A stretch of 64,000 bases of DNA from assembly GCA_023269235.1 (NCBI GenBank), contig JAHFTW010000006.1:1-64000 (forward strand), given 5' to 3'. Below the pieces are notes generated by a model, which saw only the letters and a list, made by a program, of their open reading frames with translations, searched no databases and was not told the origin of the DNA. Positions 19,185 through 34,559 of this stretch are shown one piece after another. This stretch comes from Thermoplasmata archaeon. GTDB taxonomy: Archaea; Thermoplasmatota; E2; JACPAO01; JAHFTW01. Position 1 is the first letter of the stretch. Each line of letters begins with the position of its first letter. Both the position numbers and the translations under genes were made by a program.

Positions 19185-19372
19185 GCCGCACCGCCGGGGG
19201 CGGAGGGAGGGGCACCGACGCCATGCTTCCGGCCCCACTCCTGAAGCGCGGCAGCCGCGAGCATCCCGACGATGAAGCCCGCGACCCCATGATGCAGGGC
19301 TTCGAGCGGATGGTCCGCAGCCGTGATGTTGACGAGGAAGATCGTCCCGAAAACGGCGAGTGCGAGCCTCAT
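19181..19372 (-). CDS. Small membrane protein, 63 aa
   Basis: ATG 19372 follows GGAGGGAG at unusually short spacing. Two hydrophobic segments (LALAVFGTIFLVNIT and GVAGFIVGMLAAAAL) separated by DHPLEALHH. It ends in a short Gly/Pro tail. Small membrane ORFs in early phage regions often act in superinfection exclusion or inhibition; no evidence decides this here. Confidence 0.5.
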   Translation of the reverse strand: MRLALAVFGTIFLVNITAADHPLEALHHGVAGFIVGMLAAAALQEWGRKHGVGAPPSAPGGAA

Positions 19373-24203: not shown

Positions 24204-25493
24204 TCACTGCCCGACGACGAACTCGACCGGGGCCTCGATGCCGAGGTCGCGGAGCAGGTCTTCGATCACCGGCCGGTACTCGTTCTCGGCGCATTCGCGA
24301 AAGCGTTCTCCGACGACGACGCGGATGACGCCGTTCGTCTCCCCGCTCTGGCGCGTCGGCTTGAACCAGGTCTCGAAGTCGCGCTCGTCGATCACGTCGC
24401 GGAGCCGCTCGAGGACGGCCGGCCAGTCGCCGCCACCTGCAGGCGCCGGCGGGAGCTGGGGACGCTGGGCCGCGCACGGCACCGGCGGATGCGCGCCGAC
24501 GAGAGGTCGGGGAGGGGGCTCGCTGGCCGCCGAGCGGAATGGTCGGTCGTACCGTCCCTCCTCGACCTTCGTGAGGGAGTCGGGCCGGAGGAGGAAGTCC
24601 AGGGTCACCCAGGACTGCCCGAGGAGGTGAGGGAGAGCGGCGAGGCGGCGGACGGCAGCCGCCCATCGCTCGAGGTCGGGCACGGTCTTCAGCCGGGCGC
24701 GCGCCGCCTTCTCCCTGCCGGGGGGCAGGGCCTTCGCCTCCGGGAGGGCTCCTCGGTTCGCGTTCCAGCCTTCGAGGAGCTGGCGAGGGGAGGGCGCGCG
24801 AGCGCCCGGGGAAGCGGAGCTTCCGCTCCCCTCTCTCTCTGTTCCTGTTCCTGTTCCTGCTCCTGATTCCTCGAAGCCTTCGGGAAGGCTTCCGGGAAAG
24901 AGAGACCCCGGAAACCCGGAAGGCTTCCGGGCATCATTCCCGGAAGGCTCCGTGTCATCACTCCCGGAAGCCTTCGGGGAAGGCATCGGGGAAGGGTTCG
25001 GGGAAGGCTTCGGGGAAGCGGGAAGGGGTTTCGGCGTGCCGACCCGCGTCCTTCCGCGCCCGTCGACCCAGAGCGGCTCATCGAAGACGTCCGGATAGAG
25101 GCAGGATTCCCGCAGGGTACGGATCGCTTCGTCGCGCAGCTCGCACTCCGGGATCTCCGCGATCGCCTTCCGCCAAGCCTTGACGACGTTCGGACTCTCT
25201 GGAGGGTTGTAGTTCACCGCTCGAGGAATCCAAACGACACGGGAACTCCAATCTGCGCGCACCATTTCGCGTTTTTCGAGCTCGAAAAATGCAGAACGGA
25301 ACGCGCGAAGGCTCCATCCGATCGCCTCGGCGAGGCCCGCCTCACCCTCGGAAAAGAGGCCAGGGGCGGCCGTCGTGTGGGGGCCGGTGAGGAGGTAGAT
25401 CCAGAGGGTCTGCGCGTTCGGCCGGGGCTTCGAGAGGGACCGAAACTTTCCGTCGCCCCACATCCCCACGTCGATCTTCCGGTGGCGCGCCAC
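24204..25493 (-). CDS. Replication initiator with N-terminal HTH and C-terminal DnaA domain I-like region
   Basis: Protein of 429 aa. Residues 1-120 look like phage replication initiators (RHRKIDVGMWGDGKFRSLSK; winged-helix region GWSLRAFRSAFFELEKREM). Residues 150-215 are a Ser/Pro/Gly linker coded by iteron-like repeats. The last 75 residues (WPAVLERLRDVIDERDFETWFKP, in pieces; then FRECAENEYRPVIEDLL) match DnaA domain I, which contacts DnaB in bacteria. So this protein probably binds the origin and recruits host helicase, as lambda O does with P. The stop is at 24204, and the next 118 nt left hold no clear gene. Confidence 0.8.
   Translation of the reverse strand: MARHRKIDVGMWGDGKFRSLSKPRPNAQTLWIYLLTGPHTTAAPGLFSEGEAGLAEAIGWSLRAFRSAFFELEKREMVRADWSSRVVWIPRAVNYNPPESPNVVKAWRKAIAEIPECELRDEAIRTLRESCLYPDVFDEPLWVDGRGRTRVGTPKPLPASPKPSPNPSPMPSPKASGSDDTEPSGNDARKPSGFPGSLFPGSLPEGFEESGAGTGTGTEREGSGSSASPGARAPSPRQLLEGWNANRGALPEAKALPPGREKAARARLKTVPDLERWAAAVRRLAALPHLLGQSWVTLDFLLRPDSLTKVEEGRYDRPFRSAASEPPPRPLVGAHPPVPCAAQRPQLPPAPAGGGDWPAVLERLRDVIDERDFETWFKPTRQSGETNGVIRVVVGERFRECAENEYRPVIEDLLRDLGIEAPVEFVVGQ
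24871..25030. repeat. Iteron-like repeat cluster, candidate replication origin
   Basis: Dense repeats: 12-mers GGGGAAGGCATC, GGGGAAGGGTTC, GGGGAAGGCTTC at 24976-25011 with a partial fourth, and inverted CCGGAAGGCTTCCGG-type units at 24880-24970. A (GTTCCT)3 run precedes at 24841. They lie inside the initiator gene, as lambda iterons lie inside O. Confidence 0.65.
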
Positions 25494-25494
25494 G

Positions 25495-25764
25495 CTATGC
25501 CTTCCCCCTTCTCGAGCTGCGCCGCACGGCGGGCGGCTCCATGGTGATGAGGCTGTACGCGGCCATGAGGCGGCCTGTGACGCCGCGGCGGTTCCGCTCG
25601 ACGTCAGACAGGTAGCCCGCCGAGAAAGCCAGCCTGCGGGCCATCTCGCGCAGGCCGATGCCCTTCTTCTCGCGAAGGGCCCGGAGGTGCCGCCCGTTCG
25701 GCGCGTGACGAAGGCTGCCGCACTGCGGGCAGCGGCGCATGACGATGAGGGATGGCTCAGGCAC
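25495..25764 (-). CDS. XRE-type HTH protein with N-terminal zinc knuckle
   Basis: Protein of 89 aa, GTG 25764 with GAGGAGGAGAACAC upstream; ATG 25740 is an alternative. CPQC near the start may pair with a downstream His, then the HTH: LRALREKKGIGLREMARRL, followed by FSAGYLSDVERNRRG. One base from the replication initiator start, so likely a regulator of the replication block. Confidence 0.72.
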   Translation of the reverse strand: MPEPSLIVMRRCPQCGSLRHAPNGRHLRALREKKGIGLREMARRLAFSAGYLSDVERNRRGVTGRLMAAYSLITMEPPAVRRSSRRGKA

Positions 25765-26053
25765 GTGTTCTCCTCCTCTCCTCCGCTTTCACTCGGCGGA
25801 CGTGCCTGCGCCAGCCCTTCGGGAGCCGGCCGCCGAAGGCGCGCCGCATCTGCCAGGAGCGCTTGGCCGGGCGGGCCGCACAGGCGCGGGCCGCGCGGAC
25901 GTAGTCGCGGAACGTGGCGCCGGCGGCGCGGGCAGCGGCCCTCACGTCGTTCAGAGACCGGGCGAGGCCGGCGGCCGCCTCGCTCACAGAGCGCAGGAAT
26001 GCCGCCGTCTCGGCGCTCATTCGGAGGTCGATCTCGTTCCCGTGGGCCGTCAT
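25757..26053 (-). CDS. Helical protein with basic tail, 98 aa
   Basis: ATG 26053 overlaps the SNF2 stop (ATGA). Helical body (LRSVSEAAAGLARSLNDVRA) and a strongly basic C-terminus GWRRHVRRVKAEERRR. That tail and the ribosome site overlapping its codons resemble those of the plus-strand gene 44362-44643. Possibly DNA or RNA binding. Confidence 0.55.
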   Translation of the reverse strand: MTAHGNEIDLRMSAETAAFLRSVSEAAAGLARSLNDVRAAARAAGATFRDYVRAARACAARPAKRSWQMRRAFGGRLPKGWRRHVRRVKAEERRRTRA

Positions 26054-27810
26054 GAAGCCACCTCCTCGACGAGCCCCGGCTCGCCTTCAGGGTTCTCGCC
26101 GGGGAGGCCGAGCCCGCGCTGCCGGAGGTAGCTCTCGGCGAGGGCCTTCACCCGGTCGGTGTCGTCGCCGGCCGTCTCGAGAATCGACGCCTGCGGGTCG
26201 CGGATGCCGTCGGCCTGGGCCTTCTTCAGGCCGAGGACGTCGACGATCGACGGGTCGGCGCCCGTCTCTGAGACGAGGTAGTAGGCGACGACGGGATCCT
26301 TCTGGCCGTCGCGGAAGATGCGGCCGGTGTTCTGCTCGTGAACGGCAGGGGACCAGTCGAGCTCCCCGAAGACGACTGTGCGGCAGACGTGCTGGAGCCC
26401 GTCGAGGCCGGCGCCGGCGCGGAGCGACATCACGAGCAGAGGTGAGGTCCCCTCGATGAACGCCTTCTTCGAGGCCTCCTTCTGAGCGGGCGACTCGCTC
26501 CCCGTGTAGAGGACGGGGCCGAGGTCCTTCAACTGCTCGAGCCAGAGGTCATAGACCGCGCGGTGCCAGCCGAAGAGGACGACGCGCTCGCCGCTCTCGA
26601 TCAGGAGGCGAACGAAGTCGGCGACGTAGGGGGCCTTCGCGATGCCCGTCGCCTGGCGGAGCATGTTGGAGAAGTGCTCGCTCGCCTCCCAGCGCGCGCC
26701 CTGCTCGAGAGGTGTCCTCGCGAGGATGATGCGGGCGAGTTCCTCCGCGGCGTGCCCGACCTTGTGGAGGGCCTCCGTGTCGGAGTCGACCATGTGGACG
26801 ACCTTCGAGAGGGGAGGCAACTCGCGCCCGACGTCGGCGCGCGTGCGGCGGATCATCAGGCCCGCGTCGCGCAGGTAGGTGCCGAACGCCTTCGGCTCCT
26901 TCACGCGCTCCTTCCCCTGGTAGCCGACGCACCACTCGGTGACGAACTCGGAGCGAGTCCCGAGCGCGCCCGGGCGGAGGACCTCGGAGACGTTGAAATA
27001 TTCCGAGCCCCAATTGAAGATCGGCGTCGCCGAGAGGCCGACGCGGAAGGTGGCGGCGCGAGCGATGGCGGCTGCGGCCTCGTACTTAGCGGACTCGCTG
27101 CGGCGAAGCTCCTGCACCTCGTCGAAGACGATCGTCTTCGCAAGGTTCGAGAGGACTGTCGACCAGCCCGCGAGCTTGTGGTAGTTCACGATCAGGACGT
27201 CGGGGATGGCGTCCTCCATGAGCCGGAGCTGCTTCTTCTGCCGACCGACGAGCCGGAGGTCGTACGGCTGGCCTTTCCGGATGACGTGCGTGCGGAGGTC
27301 GGGCGCGAAGCGGTGGATCTCGCTCTCCCATTGAAGCGGGAGGTGCGCGAGGGTCACGACGACGGCCGGGAGGGCCTCCGGCACGGTGAACATGGCGATC
27401 GCCTGCGCCGTCTTCCCGATGCCGACGTCGTCGGCGATCAGGATGCCGCCCGACTTCAGCCCGAGCTCGGCGCCGATGCGCTGGTAGTCGCGCGCGGGGA
27501 TCGCCAGGTCGAAGGCCCGGGGAGGCGTGTAGCCGGAGAGGAGCGCCTCGACGATGGAGGTCCTCTCCCGATAGGCGGCCGAGCGCGAGGCCAGGAGATC
27601 GGGCGGCTCGACCGTCATCGGGAAGCGCTCGAGGAACCACTCGAGCTCCCGAGCGTTCTCGTCGGTGTCGGAGAGGAGGAACGTCCCGGTGTGGCTCTTC
27701 GCCAGTTTCCCGAAGACGCGCTTCAGGCGGATCGCGACGTGAGGCTCGGGCGTGACCTTCCACGCTCGCCTCTTCCCGTCGTAGACGACGGTGCCGAAGG
27801 TGCGGCTCAC
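26050..27810 (-). CDS. SNF2-family DNA helicase/translocase
   Basis: Protein of 586 aa. GTG 27810 overlaps the nuclease stop (GTGA); a much longer open frame upstream is only a shadow of the neighbours. Helicase motifs: Q/I DDVGIGKTAQA (about 127-137), II FDEVQEL (about 229-235), III LSATP (about 259-263), VI QNTGRIFRDGQ near residue 500. The DEVQ box and C-terminal helicase are SWI2/SNF2-like. Phages often pair such a protein with a VRR-NUC nuclease, as here, in replication or recombination modules. Confidence 0.85.
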   Translation of the reverse strand: MSRTFGTVVYDGKRRAWKVTPEPHVAIRLKRVFGKLAKSHTGTFLLSDTDENARELEWFLERFPMTVEPPDLLASRSAAYRERTSIVEALLSGYTPPRAFDLAIPARDYQRIGAELGLKSGGILIADDVGIGKTAQAIAMFTVPEALPAVVVTLAHLPLQWESEIHRFAPDLRTHVIRKGQPYDLRLVGRQKKQLRLMEDAIPDVLIVNYHKLAGWSTVLSNLAKTIVFDEVQELRRSESAKYEAAAAIARAATFRVGLSATPIFNWGSEYFNVSEVLRPGALGTRSEFVTEWCVGYQGKERVKEPKAFGTYLRDAGLMIRRTRADVGRELPPLSKVVHMVDSDTEALHKVGHAAEELARIILARTPLEQGARWEASEHFSNMLRQATGIAKAPYVADFVRLLIESGERVVLFGWHRAVYDLWLEQLKDLGPVLYTGSESPAQKEASKKAFIEGTSPLLVMSLRAGAGLDGLQHVCRTVVFGELDWSPAVHEQNTGRIFRDGQKDPVVAYYLVSETGADPSIVDVLGLKKAQADGIRDPQASILETAGDDTDRVKALAESYLRQRGLGLPGENPEGEPGLVEEVAS

Positions 27811-28199
27811 CGGATCCCCCGCAGCACCGGGACGAAGACGAGCGGCTTCCCGTTCAGGATCGGCGGGAGGTGCCGGTGCTTCAGTCGGGACGAGACGAGG
27901 ATGAGTCCAGCGATGCGGTCGTGCTGGGCGTAGCGCATGAGCTGGAGGAGGACGTCCTTCAGCGAGCCGTCGACCTTGCACTCGACGCCGAGGCGCTCGT
28001 CCACGAAGAAGTCGACGACGTCGCGAGGGCCGAGGCGGAACTCCGGGTCGAATGGAAGACCGCAGGCCTCGAGCGCCGCCGCGATGCCGGCCTGAAGCTC
28101 CTTCTCGCCTTCGGTGAAGGCGAAACGGTAACGCCCGAGGTACCCGGCGACAAGGCACGCCAGCGTGCACGGGTCGCGGTCGGGAGTGCCCGCCGTCAT
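27807..28199 (-). CDS. VRR-NUC-like nuclease, PD-(D/E)xK fold
   Basis: Protein of 130 aa from ATG 28199 (ATGA overlap with a 43 aa gene). Residues about 60-100 show the fold: DVVDFFVDERLGVECKVDGS, where Asp of VVDF and Glu-x-Lys of VECK are catalytic, followed by QLMRYAQHDRI. It may cut branched or flap DNA. Its start overlaps and stop overlap place it in one unit with the SNF2 helicase, the common VRR-NUC/SNF2 pair. Confidence 0.75.
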   Translation of the reverse strand: MTAGTPDRDPCTLACLVAGYLGRYRFAFTEGEKELQAGIAAALEACGLPFDPEFRLGPRDVVDFFVDERLGVECKVDGSLKDVLLQLMRYAQHDRIAGLILVSSRLKHRHLPPILNGKPLVFVPVLRGIR

Positions 28200-28327
28200 G
28201 GGAGCTGCCTCTCGTAGAGGCGCGAGCGCACCTCGCCCGTGTCGGGCCAGCGGGAGACGACGCCGGTCCAGACGTAGCCCTTGGGCGGCGTCTGGCCGGG
28301 GAAGAGCCAGAGGAGGAGGAACGTCAT
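28196..28327 (-). CDS. Small conserved-looking protein, 43 aa, between helicase genes
   Basis: ATG 28327 overlaps the stop of the helicase-methyltransferase (ATGA) and its stop overlaps the nuclease ATG (ATGA). Starts MTFLLLWLFPGQTPPKGYVW, hydrophobic then polar, and contains GVVSRWPDTGEV. Coupled on both sides, so it is likely translated. Not recognised. Confidence 0.6.
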   Translation of the reverse strand: MTFLLLWLFPGQTPPKGYVWTGVVSRWPDTGEVRSRLYERQLP

Positions 28328-30879
28328 GCGCAATCCTCAAGATCGAAGAGCGCCGGCATGGCGATCTCCTCCGCAGCGGCGCGGCAGTAGGAGACGCCAT
28401 CCGTGAAGTAGGAGGGGTTCAGCTCGAATCCGATCCCGCGCCGCCGGAGCTTGACCGCGCAGTAGGGAACGGTCGCGAGACCGGCGAAGGGGTCGAGCAC
28501 GGTCTCCCCGGGCATGGAGAACTGAGCGATCAGCCGGTCGACGATGTCGAATTGCAGGGGGCAGAGGTGCATCTCTCTGCCCTTCGCGGCCTGGGCCCCG
28601 TTCAGCGTCCTCATCCTGGCGATGTCGGTCCAGACGTCGGGATGCCAACTCGGGGGCTGGAGGAGCATGAAGGTGACGGGCAGCATCCCCTTCTCCTCGA
28701 GCGCCTCCCCGAGCTTCACGTGGTGCTCGAAGTCGTAGACGTTCTCGAGGTTGAACTTCCGGAAGAGCTGGAAGATGGCGTCGTGTGGCAGCTCGACGAG
28801 TTCCTCGGGGCGAATGAAGCGGTTCCCGCTCGAGCGCATGAACCCGTGGGCGTCGATCTGCCAACGGCTCCGCGAGTACGCCTCCTTCGACTTCACGACC
28901 GGATCGTCGGCGTAGCCGTCGCTCGCGTCCGTCGGCGGCTTCCGGAAGAGCAGGACGTACTCTGGCATTCCGGCCCCCATGCGCGACCCGTCCTTGCACT
29001 GTTCCGTCCAGCCGAGTCGGTAGGTCTGGTTGTTCTCCCGAACCACGTCGGTCACGACCGTCTTCCGCGCAAGGAACGCAAAGCCGTGCTTCCGGAAATG
29101 GGCGATCGTGTAGTCCGAGAACGGCGACACGGTCTGGAAGCCGAGGCCCGTGATCCCCCCTGGAACGATCCGGTCCTTCACGTGGACCGCGGCGACCCGG
29201 CCGGGCTTCAAGGCACGGAGGAGCGACGGCGTCAGGAAGCCGAGGTGCTCGAAGAAGTGCTCGTCATTGTCCGTGTGCCCGAGGTCGTTGTAGGAGGGCG
29301 TGTATTCGTACTGCGTTGAGAACGGGATCGACGTCACGATGAGGTCGACGCTGTTCTCTGGGAGGCGCTGCGCCTCCTCGATCGCGTCCGCGTTCACGAG
29401 CGTGTAGCCTTCGCCGCGGACCTCGACGCGCCGAACCCCGAGGGAACGCGTCAGACTCTCGGCCATGGCCGCTTTGGCGAGACCGTACTCTCGAATCAGC
29501 TCTGTCATTCGGTTCACCATCTCCACGTGCTGCGCCCACTTCCGCTCGAGCGTGCGGCGGATCTCGCGCTCGGCTTCGGTGTAGATGAGGTCGATCCGGA
29601 CGCGCTCCGTCTGGAGGAAGCGGTGAATCCGGTGAACGGCCTGGATGAAGTCCTGGAACTTGAACCCGATGCCGAGGAAGACGGCGCGGGCGCAGTGCCG
29701 TTGGAAGTTGCAGCCGGAACCCAGCATGACCGGCTTCCCGGCCAGCTCGCGGATTCGTCCGTCAGAGAAGTCAATGATCGTCTGCTCGCGCTCGTCGAGG
29801 TCCTGTGCGCCGAAGACCGCCGCGACCCCGGGGATCGCGGCCTCGATGGCGTGGCGTTCCACTTCGAGGTCATGCCAGATCAGCCGATGCGCGTCGGGCT
29901 CTTCCGCTCGAATCTCCATGAGCCTCTCGAGCCGTGCGACGAGGCTGTCCCTCTTCTCCCGCGCGGCGTGCGAGACCCCGATCGCCGCGTTCCGAAAGAG
30001 ACGGGCCTGTCCATCGCGTTCCTGTCCGGCGGCGGAGTGATCCGTCGGCACCTCGTGCCAGCGGACGTCGAGGTTGGGCAGGACGTAGCCGGCGTCGTCG
30101 AAGCCGAGATCCGAAGGCTTCTGGACGAAGAGTCCCCAGGACGCGACCCACAGCCAGAACTCTCGCTCTTTGTGGGGATGGAGAGTCAGGTGGTCGGCCT
30201 TCTCGGAGTTGCGACGGAAGAAGCGGGTCTTCGCCTCTCCGACGTCCATTATCCCGAGGTAGGCTGCGTAGGAGAGCAGCTCGATGTACTCGTTCGGCGA
30301 GGGCGTCGCCGTGGCGACGAAGCGGAACGGAACGCCGCCGGAGAAGCGATCGCCGCGCTTCCGACCTTCGGCAGGGCCGCGGCCGCCGTCGCCCGCGAAG
30401 AGCCTCATGAACTCACGGAAGGTCTTCGTCCCGCCGAAGCCGCGGAGGACGGCGGCCTCGTCGAGCGAGGAGACGGAGAAGCGGCGCGGGTCGAGCTTCC
30501 CATCCCGGACCGTCTCGTAGTTCGTGAGGTAGATTCCCTCCGGGTCTTCACATTCCTCGATGCGCCGGACGAAGCGGACCTTGATCCCGAGCATCGCGGC
30601 GTCCCGGAAGAACTCCTGGCGGACGCCCAGGGGGATCACGATCAGGGCCATCCCGCCCTCGCGCTCCCGGGTGAGCCGGACCGCCTCGAGCTGGATGACC
30701 GTCTTCCCGAGGCCGAAGGCGGCGAAGCACGCGCGGCGCCCACCTTCGACCATCCATCGGACGATCGCCGCTTGATGCGGCTTCAGGATGGGGTTCACGG
30801 CGAGCACGGGCCCGGCCTCGCCGTAGCTCGGAGCCATCCTCACCTTTGCCCTCAGGAAGGCGTGGTAGGCGTCGCTCAT
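28324..30879 (-). CDS. Helicase-DNA methyltransferase fusion
   Basis: Protein of 851 aa, ATG 30879 (ATGA overlap). N-terminal SF2 helicase: FGLGKT (about 55-60), LDEAAV, TATPSPNEY, and QAVHRIHRF. C-terminal N4/N6-adenine or cytosine methyltransferase of the beta order: motif IV VDLIVTSIPFSTQYEY (about residues 510-525; usual form TSPPY) and motif I VLDPFAGLATV (about 793-803, usually DPFxGSGT). Fusions of this type occur in large phages and might protect phage DNA or modify during replication. Whether TSIPF is active is unclear. The gene heads the unit with nuclease and SNF2 helicase. Confidence 0.82.
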   Translation of the reverse strand: MSDAYHAFLRAKVRMAPSYGEAGPVLAVNPILKPHQAAIVRWMVEGGRRACFAAFGLGKTVIQLEAVRLTREREGGMALIVIPLGVRQEFFRDAAMLGIKVRFVRRIEECEDPEGIYLTNYETVRDGKLDPRRFSVSSLDEAAVLRGFGGTKTFREFMRLFAGDGGRGPAEGRKRGDRFSGGVPFRFVATATPSPNEYIELLSYAAYLGIMDVGEAKTRFFRRNSEKADHLTLHPHKEREFWLWVASWGLFVQKPSDLGFDDAGYVLPNLDVRWHEVPTDHSAAGQERDGQARLFRNAAIGVSHAAREKRDSLVARLERLMEIRAEEPDAHRLIWHDLEVERHAIEAAIPGVAAVFGAQDLDEREQTIIDFSDGRIRELAGKPVMLGSGCNFQRHCARAVFLGIGFKFQDFIQAVHRIHRFLQTERVRIDLIYTEAEREIRRTLERKWAQHVEMVNRMTELIREYGLAKAAMAESLTRSLGVRRVEVRGEGYTLVNADAIEEAQRLPENSVDLIVTSIPFSTQYEYTPSYNDLGHTDNDEHFFEHLGFLTPSLLRALKPGRVAAVHVKDRIVPGGITGLGFQTVSPFSDYTIAHFRKHGFAFLARKTVVTDVVRENNQTYRLGWTEQCKDGSRMGAGMPEYVLLFRKPPTDASDGYADDPVVKSKEAYSRSRWQIDAHGFMRSSGNRFIRPEELVELPHDAIFQLFRKFNLENVYDFEHHVKLGEALEEKGMLPVTFMLLQPPSWHPDVWTDIARMRTLNGAQAAKGREMHLCPLQFDIVDRLIAQFSMPGETVLDPFAGLATVPYCAVKLRRRGIGFELNPSYFTDGVSYCRAAAEEIAMPALFDLEDCA

Positions 30880-31121
30880 GCCGCCTCGACGCGCCGCGCG
30901 TCCTCGTAGACGTGCCGCTGGAGCCTGTCGAAGGTGAGGCGCAGGGCCTCTTCGACGTGAGGGAGGAGCGGCCGCGTCTCCGCCTCCATCGCCGAGAGGT
31001 AGGAAATCGAGAAGCCGGAGATTCGGGCCACTTCCTCGACGCGGACGCCGAGCGCGAGACGGAGCCTTCTGTAGTAGTCGGCCCTGCTCTTCGGCTGCTG
31101 GCCGGCACGGCAGCGCTTCAC
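30876..31121 (-). CDS. XRE-type HTH protein, 81 aa
   Basis: GTG 31121 overlaps the upstream stop (GTGA). HTH pattern RLRLALGVRVEEVARISGF, then SISYLSAMEAETR. It precedes the helicase-methyltransferase and may regulate the block or act as a small accessory DNA-binding protein. Confidence 0.65.
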   Translation of the reverse strand: MKRCRAGQQPKSRADYYRRLRLALGVRVEEVARISGFSISYLSAMEAETRPLLPHVEEALRLTFDRLQRHVYEDARRVEAA

Positions 31122-31504
31122 GCCCCGGCCCCCTTCGCCAGGTGCTGCGCCGCAGCCGTGAGCTCGCCGAGGATCGTCGGCTCGAGGCGCTCGCGCGCGA
31201 CGTTGACAAACGCGCGGTCGAAGGAGGTCCTCTGCCGCCGGTGGGCGCCGAGGGCTTCCTGCACGCGCTGACGCAGCCGGGCGAGGTCGTGGATTCGGTC
31301 GTGGGCCGCGTCCCACTCGACGAGCGGGATCGTCCGGCCGGTCTCGCGCCGGTAGGTCGCGCCGTCGCGGAGGAAGCGCCGAAGGGAGGCCGACTCCTCG
31401 TCGATCGCGGCCAGGGCGCAGAGAGCCGCCTCGACAGACTCGCCGTCGGAGACGGCGGCGGGGATGACGATGACGAGGGGCGGAGGGAAGGCAGGGCGGG
31501 TCAC
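31118..31504 (-). CDS. Helical hypothetical protein, 128 aa
   Basis: GTG 31504 overlaps the upstream stop (GTGA). Mostly helical; contains TYRRETGRTIPLVEWDAAHDR and ARLRQRVQEALGAHRR. Soluble-looking, no metal motif. Not recognised. Confidence 0.5.
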   Translation of the reverse strand: MTRPAFPPPLVIVIPAAVSDGESVEAALCALAAIDEESASLRRFLRDGATYRRETGRTIPLVEWDAAHDRIHDLARLRQRVQEALGAHRRQRTSFDRAFVNVARERLEPTILGELTAAAQHLAKGAGA

Positions 31505-31800
31505 GCTGCGACCGCCCCGTCGACCGGCTTCAGCCAGTCGCGCTCGGCGATGCCGCGGAAGCCGTCGGGGAAGGCGACGATGAGCGGGCAGCGGCAGCGG
31601 TCCTCGGAGATCTGAACGACGGTGCAGCGGCAGCCGAGGCGACGCGGGTAGAGGGAACCCGGTCCGTCCGGACGCTGCTCTCCGCCGCCGAAGATGAACG
31701 ACCGGCCGACGACGTCGCTGAGAGCGTGCCTGCGGGCGGCGCGCCGACTCTCCTCGTGAGGGGACCGAAGCCAGGGCCACGGTGCGGGCGGAATGTTCAT
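31501..31800 (-). CDS. Hypothetical protein, 99 aa, Cys pair
   Basis: ATG 31800 overlaps the upstream stop (ATGA). Starts MNIPPAPWPWLRSPHEES; CRCTVV and DRCRCPL Cys pairs 9 residues apart suggest a zinc site; ends RDWLKPVDGAVAA. Unrecognised. Confidence 0.5.
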   Translation of the reverse strand: MNIPPAPWPWLRSPHEESRRAARRHALSDVVGRSFIFGGGEQRPDGPGSLYPRRLGCRCTVVQISEDRCRCPLIVAFPDGFRGIAERDWLKPVDGAVAA

Positions 31801-32168
31801 GACCGAACCCCCTGCCAGAGGCGGACCCATCCGCCGTTTCGAGAGGCGAAGACCGACGTCTTCCATTGCCCGGTCGAGCGGATCGTCCCGGCGAGGCGCT
31901 CGGCTCGGAAGGCGCAGCCGATCGTTCTCGGGTCGAGACCGACCGGGCTTCCGATCGCGCGGCGGACGTCGTCGCTCGAGAAGGGCTCGGGGGAGAGGGC
32001 GAGCGCGCGGATCGCGGCGCGCGCGATGTCGATGTACGGGCTCCGGTACTTCTCCGCCTTGGCCTGGAGCCCCTCGAGCTTCCGGTCGGACCGCTGCGTG
32101 CCGACGCCCGGCTGCGGCTGCGGGATCGGACGGTCGAAGAGACCGGGCTGAGCGTTAGCGCTCGCCAT
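31797..32168 (-). CDS. Winged-helix-like protein, 123 aa
   Basis: ATG 32168 overlaps the upstream gene by 14 nt. The last 70 residues look like a winged helix of phage regulators (IRALALSPEPFSSDDVRRAIG, then DPRTIGCAFRAERLAG). The first 45 are Pro/Gln-rich. Possibly replication-linked; not proven. Confidence 0.55.
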   Translation of the reverse strand: MASANAQPGLFDRPIPQPQPGVGTQRSDRKLEGLQAKAEKYRSPYIDIARAAIRALALSPEPFSSDDVRRAIGSPVGLDPRTIGCAFRAERLAGTIRSTGQWKTSVFASRNGGWVRLWQGVRS

Positions 32169-33196: not shown

Positions 33197-33904
33197 TCAC
33201 CCCCTGCGCCCCGAGACGATGGTTTCGTTGTAGGCCTTCACGCCCGGGTAGGAGAGCTCGGCCTTCAAGGCCTTCGCCTGCGAGTCGAGGAAGGACTGGT
33301 TCGGGACGATCGCGGCGAGAGGAGCCGTTCCGTCGGCGACCGCGCGCACGAGCGTCTTCAGGTCGACGACCATCGCCTTCCAGTTCTCGCGGAACGAGAC
33401 GCCCTCGGCCTTCGTCTCCGACCTCACGACGACGAGGGGAGCCTCCACGGGGGCGGCGATCAGCTCCTCGGCGGACTGCGCGTCGCCAGCCTTCTCCGCC
33501 TGGAGAGCCAGCTCGAGGCGCTCGTCCTCGGCCTTCCTCTTAGCTTCCTCCTGAAGCCGACGCTGCTCCTCCTGGCGCCTGCGCTCCTGCTCGGCGTTGT
33601 AGGTCGCCATGAGGGGCTTGACGATCTTCTCGGCTTCGAGGAGAGGCCCGGCCAGCTTCGCCTTCACGGCGAGCGCGGCCTTGTGAGACCGGTGCGCGGC
33701 CTCGATCGACGGGTCGCAAAGCTGCTCGATCTCGCCGAGCGCCGTCTTGACGTTGACGAGGAATTCGCCGGCCGCGCGGAACTCGTCCGCCGTGCGGATG
33801 ACGAGAGCCTGCGCCTCCGCCTTGATCGCGAGGGCCTTCCGCTCGAGCGCGCTCTGGCGTTCGGGTTCGGGCTCGACGAGGGAGATTCTCGGAACTGCGG
33901 ACAT
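33197..33904 (-). CDS. Recombination-module coiled-coil protein
   Basis: Protein of 235 aa from ATG 33904 (AAGGAGACCTGAG). Central coiled coil of Glu/Arg/Gln (EQERRRQEEQRRLQEE) and C-terminal block VSFRENWKAMVVDLKTLVRAV, then LDSQAKALKAEL and PGVKAYNE. That C-terminal block recurs in phage proteins encoded beside recombinases; biochemical role not settled. Next gene upstream is a PD-(D/E)xK exonuclease. Confidence 0.65.
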   Translation of the reverse strand: MSAVPRISLVEPEPERQSALERKALAIKAEAQALVIRTADEFRAAGEFLVNVKTALGEIEQLCDPSIEAAHRSHKAALAVKAKLAGPLLEAEKIVKPLMATYNAEQERRRQEEQRRLQEEAKRKAEDERLELALQAEKAGDAQSAEELIAAPVEAPLVVVRSETKAEGVSFRENWKAMVVDLKTLVRAVADGTAPLAAIVPNQSFLDSQAKALKAELSYPGVKAYNETIVSGRRG

Positions 33905-33905
33905 C

Positions 33906-34559
33906 TCAGGTCTCCTTCCGGGCGCGTCGCCCGAAGCGTTCTTGGCAGTGGTAGACGCGGGCAGCGGCGCGGAAGTCGTCCACGTCGCGGCCGGCGCACT
34001 TCGTCTCGTGCTCATGCCAGCGATAGGTCCCGTCATTGCGGAGGTAGAGGGCGGCGCGGCGGAGCCCGTAGGTCGTCGCCCTGCCGGTCGTCTCTGCGTA
34101 GGCCACGGCTTCACCGGCGGACTGGACCGCGTGCCATGGCTCCGGCCCGCCGCTCTTCCAGTTGTTGACGACGAGGAGCGGACTCCCGTTCACTCTCCCG
34201 ATGCCGTCGATTCGCGTCGCGAACCGGAGGACCTCGGAGCCGACGAGCAGCTCGGGCGCCTCCACCGGCTGCCAGTGCATCTCGATGGCGAACCGCTCCC
34301 AGGCCTCGACGTAGGGGAGGATCAGGGGCGCGAGGCTGTCCCGCTGGAGGTCGCCCTCGATGAGGTACTGGATGGCGAGGTGGACCGCCACGCCGCGCTC
34401 CCGCGCCTCCACGCTGTAGAAGCTGTCGTCGAGCAGCCGAGCGGCCTTCAGGATCGACGTGATCCCCGGAATGACTTCGCCGTCGAGCGTGTAGAGGTGC
34501 GGCTCCTCCTCGAAGGTCAAGCGGCCAGAGAAGGGGATCCGGTCCGGCAGGGCCGACAC
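33906..34559 (-). CDS. PD-(D/E)xK exonuclease-like protein with altered active site
   Basis: Protein of 217 aa from GTG 34559. RecB/Cas4-like features: GITSILKAARLLDD start, ERGVAVHLAIQYLIEG helix, RIDGIGRVNGSPLLVVNNWKSG and later QSAGEAVAYAE. In active relatives the second block reads DxK (DWKTG); here it is N-N-W-K-S-G, so the acidic residue is Asn. The upstream Asp (RIDG) stays. It may be inactive, structural or unusual. It lies next to the recombination gene at 34570-35541. Confidence 0.65.
   Translation of the reverse strand: MSALPDRIPFSGRLTFEEEPHLYTLDGEVIPGITSILKAARLLDDSFYSVEARERGVAVHLAIQYLIEGDLQRDSLAPLILPYVEAWERFAIEMHWQPVEAPELLVGSEVLRFATRIDGIGRVNGSPLLVVNNWKSGGPEPWHAVQSAGEAVAYAETTGRATTYGLRRAALYLRNDGTYRWHEHETKCAGRDVDDFRAAARVYHCQERFGRRARKET

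Follow-up and report, generated by a model that had tools for sequence, protein, structure and literature searches.

A phage early operon in a Thermoplasmata archaeon assembly places a predicted methylase-helicase beside a nuclease/SNF2 pair, two loosely associated modules

The window analyzed here, a 64,000-nucleotide stretch of contig JAHFTW010000006.1 from a Thermoplasmata archaeon assembly (GCA_023269235.1), carries four consecutive genes on the minus strand between positions 26,050 and 30,879. In reading order they encode an 851-residue methylase-helicase (MTH; ATG start, 28324–30879) with an N-terminal SWI2/SNF2-type ATPase and a predicted C-terminal beta-class N6/N4 DNA methyltransferase; a 43-residue open reading frame (43-aa ORF; ATG start, 28196–28327), which lies between MTH and the next gene; a small predicted PD-(D/E)XK nuclease of 130 residues (NUC; ATG start, 27807–28199); and a 586-residue SNF2 ATPase (SNF2; GTG start, 26050–27810). 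The junctions read ATGA between MTH and the 43-aa ORF, ATGA between the 43-aa ORF and NUC, and GTGA between NUC and SNF2. The original prediction described coordinates, order, common orientation and junctions exactly, as both the sequence and the gene calls confirm, and read the four genes as one fully coupled functional unit. Our analysis leads to a different reading: MTH and NUC/SNF2 are probably two independent and widespread modules that mostly occur apart, and their association is loose, not random.

The contig holding the four genes (C21, 109,270 bases, in an assembly of 1.96 Mb and 26 contigs) consists of a 56,682-base phage unit repeated in tandem about 1.9 times. The second copy is 100% identical to the first from unit position 19,319 onward and has 56 differences (99.7% identity) across the first 19.3 kb. 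What was assembled as C21 is a phage, circular or concatemeric, and not host sequence. The unit encodes the proteins of a temperate tailed phage, including a repressor (39796, plus strand), an integrase (41374, plus strand), two exonucleases, an initiator, a RusA-like resolvase, a terminase, a portal protein, a major head protein and a tape measure protein. The four genes belong to the leftward early operon, with the exonucleases on one side and the replication initiator on the other, and are part of the early DNA-metabolism genes of this phage.

The short overlaps do not set the four genes apart from their surroundings. Exact 4-base overlaps join 35 of the 86 same-strand neighbor pairs of the phage and 21 of the 48 in the early region (the genes, 89 on the phage unit, were called with a simple codon model, and individual start sites may be off). 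Eight consecutive junctions of this type run from 25757 to 32168, beyond both ends of the interval. A small gene before MTH (30876–31121, minus strand), helix-turn-helix (HTH)-like by eye, overlaps MTH by ATGA, and SNF2 likewise overlaps by ATGA the gene that follows it, which encodes 98 residues (25757–26053, minus strand). Searches of Pfam and PHROG returned no match for the HTH-like gene (30876–31119 searched) and no significant family match for the 98-residue one. Overlaps of this kind are also common in other phages: 67 of the 87 MTH genes with enough downstream sequence overlap the next ORF (at least 30 residues) in the same way, and the same criterion holds at 49 of 90 SNF2 stops and 57 of 86 NUC stops. 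The criterion is lenient, as 786 of the 1671 internal non-stop TGA triplets in MTH genes pass it too. The ORFs that overlap the end of MTH belong to 55 families among the 67 loci, and NUC comes next in only one (L138). Loci from the phage's own contig (L001, L002 and L089–L091) were excluded from all locus counts, and L144, on the same contig as L079, was excluded from the count of MTH overlaps. We rejected the overlaps as the mark of a special unit because they are frequent in the phage operon, run past the interval in both directions, are scored leniently and lead into next genes of varying families. They permit coupled translation and are uninformative about shared function.

Sequence and model comparisons identify MTH as a predicted fusion of a SWI2/SNF2 ATPase (residues ~21–462) to a beta-class DNA methyltransferase (residues ~485–840), in which motif IV (TSIPF, 516–520) precedes motif I (DPFAG, 796–800). 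Its sole Pfam match is N6_N4_Mtase (E = 6e-13). The protein matches the PHROG family phrog_16, annotated as 'DNA helicase', across residues 29–850 (E = 7.5e-114), making it a full-length member of this family. The structural model has a mean pLDDT (a per-residue confidence score) of 71.5, with some weak stretches, and was built from an alignment (A6) of 23 of the 32 rows of a larger one (A4, comprising 31 of 85 eligible proteins plus the window protein); the rows left out were those from annotated records and some others. Its ATPase half resembles the INO80 ATPase (Z 27.1, rmsd [root mean square deviation] 3.2, 371 residues), and its methyltransferase half resembles TTHA0409 (Z 23.2, rmsd 3.4, 219 residues) and MboIIA (Z 22.3, 209 residues). 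Residues K59, DEA 140–142, TATP 190–193, R417, R420, S517-x-P519-F520 and D796-P-F-x-G800 are invariant in all 32 rows of A4. The Pfam, PHROG and model matches thus bear out the methylase call and, together with the SNF2 results below, both helicase calls of the original prediction. The methylated product may be N6-methyladenine or N4-methylcytosine.

MTH is also a familiar phage protein. Matches were found in 309 of 50,697 phage records (~0.6%), with identities of up to 66%, and 303 of the 309 cover at least 80% of the protein. In many phage lineages it is found alone, and in Arthrobacter, Mycobacterium and Pseudomonas phages it is labeled 'DNA helicase/methylase'. For example, the PHROG 16 family members of Pseudomonas phage phi297, Mycobacterium phage GUmbie and Arthrobacter phage Gorpy share its length, its ATPase-methyltransferase order and its conserved motifs, with 55–66% identity across nearly the whole protein; they show no substantive difference from it, and the downstream gene varies. 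A literature search for publications pairing 'helicase methylase' with 'mycobacteriophage' found none. Neighbor scans covered 148 of the 212 ORFs adjacent to MTH and 150 of the 198 adjacent to SNF2. Among the 148, C5 methyltransferases (phrog_116) account for 13, and replication genes are also present (initiators, DnaB-like helicases and a polymerase processivity factor).

The alignment of MTH homologs revealed additional variation in the protein. Motif IV reads S-x-P-F in all 32 rows, with I, V, W or L as the second residue, versus the usual SPP(Y/F). The P-loop (residues 55–60) alternates between GLGK and GLHK. Furthermore, one homolog (L131:4771-8658; IMG/VR 3300033233_000013) has an in-frame insert of ~344 residues directly after TSIPF, which begins with a cysteine and ends in ISGN before a serine. 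By eye, the insert looks like an intein placed in the methyltransferase active site.

NUC matches phrog_5928 (E = 7e-25) and carries the active-site pattern E32 .. D63 .. E73-x-K75 .. Q86 .. Y90. These residues are invariant in a 70-row alignment (A3), from which 14 near-identical or short sequences had been removed (83 to 69). The model was folded from 59 of the 70 rows (A5; seven from annotated records and four long ones were left out) and has a pLDDT of 93.8 and the helix-strand order of the PD-(D/E)XK fold. Its fold matches include the restriction enzymes BglII (Z 9.1, rmsd 3.7, 118 residues) and BamHI (Z 8.6, 122 residues). These results, and in particular the common core of D and E-x-K, place NUC in the PD-(D/E)XK superfamily as a predicted member. 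Comparison of the NUC sequence with solved structures gave nothing credible, and Foldseek gave no match below E 0.001. The earlier label of the gene, VRR-NUC, is not supported by Pfam: the VRR_NUC family (PF08774) matched neither the window protein at E values up to 1 nor any of 11 homologs, and in the search with the 70 homologs it is absent from the 25 families shown (16 more families, each with one homolog and E > 0.12, were not shown). No solved VRR-NUC enzyme is among the 50 fold matches listed for NUC either, an absence that excludes nothing.

The 586-residue protein reads as a SWI2/SNF2 ATPase with both RecA-like lobes. It matches SNF2-rel_dom (E = 7e-21) and Helicase_C (E = 9.8e-06) in Pfam, phrog_62 (E = 4.7e-85) and the SsoRad54 core (1z63, E = 5e-38). 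Walker A (DDVGIGKT), DEVQ and motif VI are intact and conserved in all 12 aligned rows. Matches to the DpdE and ZorD helicases in PADLOC reflect the shared SNF2 core only and fall far below the NCBIfam cut-offs. As a single query, the protein had no match in IMG/VR. One locus was found in the genome contig collection (Corallococcus, L093), and a search of 145 relatives of the host genome gave a single distant match in addition to the genome of the window itself.

Profile searches recovered many more SNF2 loci and revealed a near-constant partner. The IMG/VR scans cover the matches listed, and their counts are no measure of prevalence in that database. After excluding matches of the SNF2 hidden Markov model (HMM) below 250 bits (7 of 99), 92 loci remained, of which 86 have NUC upstream of SNF2 and in the same orientation. 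The distance between the two domains is at most 150 nt in 73 of these loci, up to 500 nt in two and greater in 11. Among the six loci without NUC, the SNF2 domain starts within 400 nt of the locus end in two and within ~2.1 kb in two more. The pair is also adjacent in named phages such as Tunturi_5, Klausavirus ArV1, Pyei1, Ruegeria phage 45A6, Dfl-JY45 and Pseudomonas Hollowayvirus E220 and D14I, where NUC is 22–40% and SNF2 38–55% identical to the window proteins. NUC and SNF2 are a genuine two-gene unit and a near-obligate pair. We do not claim that this pair is absent from the literature; the earlier view of a nuclease/SNF2 combination known in phages holds for the recurrent pairing itself. 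The neighbors of the pair form a mixed list, with at most three of the 150 ORFs per family. C5 methyltransferases were rejected as a regular partner, being within the locus in 6 of 80 cases only (the two HMMs used agreed on the genes, and no search was made for methylases of other types). At one locus (L153:6461-8644), NUC and SNF2 share a single open frame. The end of NUC reads as frameshift-like there, perhaps from a mutation or sequencing error, and for this reason the frame was not used as evidence of a fusion.

The 43-aa ORF is probably a translated, lineage-specific small gene, judging from its composition. The G+C content by codon position is 0.61/0.52/0.95, and its codon score is +18. 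The encoded protein had been described as hydrophobic, a property that we find confined to its start: residues 1–10 have a mean hydropathy of +1.95, versus −0.94 for residues 11–43 and −0.27 for the whole, and the best 19-residue window reaches +0.54, making it a weak candidate for a membrane span. We found no relatives in phages (best E 8), in the collected loci or among the ORFs that follow MTH. An 8-residue degenerate pattern had a single hit in IMG/VR, a chance match within a repeat-rich reading frame of no relation, and a match to phrog_23413 was weak (E = 0.028). Small ORFs follow MTH elsewhere (36, 38, 38, 44, 53, 62, 62, 63, 64 and 68 residues) and are unrelated to this one; judged by eye, the two of them at L061 and L088 contain a long hydrophobic segment. 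The lack of relatives, and the position of NUC directly after MTH in L138, would also fit a mere open stretch between MTH and NUC that is not a gene. We regard this as unlikely given the third-position G+C of 0.95 and the exact ATGA overlaps on both sides, which in 43 codons are suggestive rather than proof.

Having identified the parts, we examined how often they occur together. Across whole records, MTH is present in 8 of the 80 listed IMG/VR records with SNF2 (6 of 50 plus 2 of 30, counting G150, where just the helicase half is present), and SNF2 is present in 4 of the 80 listed records with MTH (3 of 50 plus 1 of 30). Many IMG/VR records are fragments, and these counts are lower bounds. 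Among the named phages, only D14I of the eight with NUC/SNF2 has MTH anywhere in its record, and none of the six with MTH has SNF2. Gene order varies as well. L138 has MTH, NUC and SNF2 in a row. In L131, NUC and SNF2 come before MTH, on the opposite side, and the methyltransferase half of that MTH is the closest seen to the window protein (85%). In L132, the order is SNF2 and then MTH. The co-occurrence counts and these three orders all fit a loose association within shared early operons. A fixed association, whose absence would count against the original prediction, is thus largely missing from the neighborhoods: the modules are usually apart, the gene after MTH varies and no relatives of the 43-aa ORF turned up in the loci and collections searched, yet the neighborhoods are not random either.

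Comparison with known systems places each module among recognized types. In phages, the coupling of SWI2/SNF2-type ATPases to adenine methyltransferases is widespread, and methylase-helicase dyads are argued to serve self-methylation against restriction, with DarB of phage P1 as the tested case (PMC5512222). Like MTH, DarB combines a DNA methyltransferase and a SWI2/SNF2 ATPase in one phage protein and fits the self-methylation model (PMC5512222). In DarB-type proteins, however, the methyltransferase precedes the helicase, is of the gamma class with an NPP(Y/F) motif and is accompanied by an LPD36 domain in what is a virion protein (PMC5512222). MTH has 851 residues, is encoded in an early operon and has its helicase part first, followed by a motif IV before motif I that is typical of the beta class. 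MTH thus departs from the DarB architecture in both domain order and methyltransferase class. The regular co-occurrence of a cognate methyltransferase and nuclease-translocase that is expected of type I, type III and ISP restriction-modification systems is not seen in the listed records. NUC/SNF2 recalls the archaeal XPB-Bax1 system, in which a superfamily 2 (SF2) motor likewise works with a PD-(D/E)XK nuclease that is a protein of its own. Bax1 is a weaker fold match to NUC (Z 6.8, 86 residues, rmsd 2.6), with a Z score typical of any PD-(D/E)XK enzyme, and XPB belongs to another helicase family, so the likeness is an analogy of working and not kinship.

We consider it probable that the early operon carries two independent modules, one for self-methylation (MTH) and one for DNA processing (NUC/SNF2). 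MTH would methylate the phage's own DNA, at N6 of adenine or N4 of cytosine, while tracking along the duplex, and host restriction enzymes would spare the modified DNA. By analogy with its family and the literature, protection from restriction is the most likely role of MTH. In the second module, the SNF2 ATPase would move on duplex or branched DNA and NUC would cut structures met in phage replication and recombination. The processing of such intermediates is the most likely role of the pair given the enzyme types, their tight pairing and the operon in which they reside. Anti-restriction and replication had both been raised as roles for these genes, and as proposals they are sensible. Several observations weigh against this two-module reading. 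The replication/recombination role of NUC/SNF2 has the operon and the types of enzyme as its main basis, as its neighbor list is mixed, and the activities of all four genes are predicted from sequence and models. C5 methyltransferases beside MTH could mean that the DNA is marked for a purpose other than anti-restriction. Furthermore, MTH co-occurs with SNF2 above the ~0.6% background (309 of 50,697), a crude rate that ignores relatedness, and L138 repeats the contiguous MTH-NUC-SNF2 order with ATGA- and GTGA-type overlaps and no small ORF. Some functional link between MTH and NUC/SNF2 is therefore possible.

A rival reading is a split restriction-modification (R-M)-like weapon, in which MTH marks phage DNA and NUC/SNF2 destroys the unmarked DNA of rival phages or the host, leading to superinfection exclusion. 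All the needed enzyme types are present, contiguous here and in L138, and MTH and SNF2 occur together above the crude expectation. The fold matches of NUC include BglII and BamHI (Z 8.4–9.1), though every PD-(D/E)XK enzyme resembles these, and the DpdE and ZorD matches of SNF2 come from the common ATPase core. The distribution of the genes disfavors this weapon, because NUC/SNF2 is mostly without MTH (MTH is missing from 72 of the 80 listed IMG/VR SNF2 records, many of them fragments, and from seven of the eight named ones) and a C5 methyltransferase, the only further methylase type searched for, is in few of the loci. A restriction nuclease that lacks its methylase should be harmful to the phage that carries it, and the reversed order in L131 departs from a fixed arrangement. 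We thus regard the weapon as very unlikely. A version in which MTH, NUC and SNF2 form the split R-M machine against unmarked competitors and the 43-aa protein acts as its regulator is less probable still; if it were true, the complete arrangement of three enzymes would have a second example in L138. Alternatively, all four genes could act jointly in replication and recombination, with MTH methylation marking strands or sites to guide NUC/SNF2 and providing no restriction shield. The replication genes found near MTH elsewhere fit this proposal, as do two Paracoccus phages in which MTH or NUC/SNF2 comes after the phage's beta clamp of DNA polymerase III, and the operon examined here holds exonucleases and an initiator. 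Most phages, however, keep replication and anti-restriction genes in common early operons, so that position does not discriminate, and the co-occurrence counts indicate that the modules are not mutually dependent. We consider joint action of this kind improbable.

The replication and recombination genes flanking the interval are on the minus strand of the same operon. Earlier in the operon are two exonuclease-like genes (33197–33904 and 33906–34559), a pair with matches to the 'exonuclease' families phrog_10477 (E = 1e-21) and phrog_298 (E = 5e-12). The replication initiator (24204–25493) matches DnaA_N in Pfam (E = 7e-07), phrog_1701, a 'DnaD-like helicase loader' (E = 1e-13), and phrog_345, 'replication initiation O-like' (E = 2e-09). 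Its sequence suggests a DnaD/O-like N-terminal part joined to a C-terminal copy of the DnaA N-terminal domain, which could allow the protein to recruit DnaB without an intermediary.

Collectively, the four genes are real and their basic naming is correct; they are members of already known kinds that were over-read as one unit. Where a phage operon is dense, ATGA and GTGA overlaps are weak grounds for proposing a functional unit, and the survey of other loci sets the near-obligate NUC/SNF2 pair apart from MTH, its incidental neighbor. The pair is a reasonable target for biochemistry, which the proposed four-gene unit would not be. The interval looks less like a new machine than like an ordinary run of a phage's early genes, and both of its gene sets are widespread in phages.

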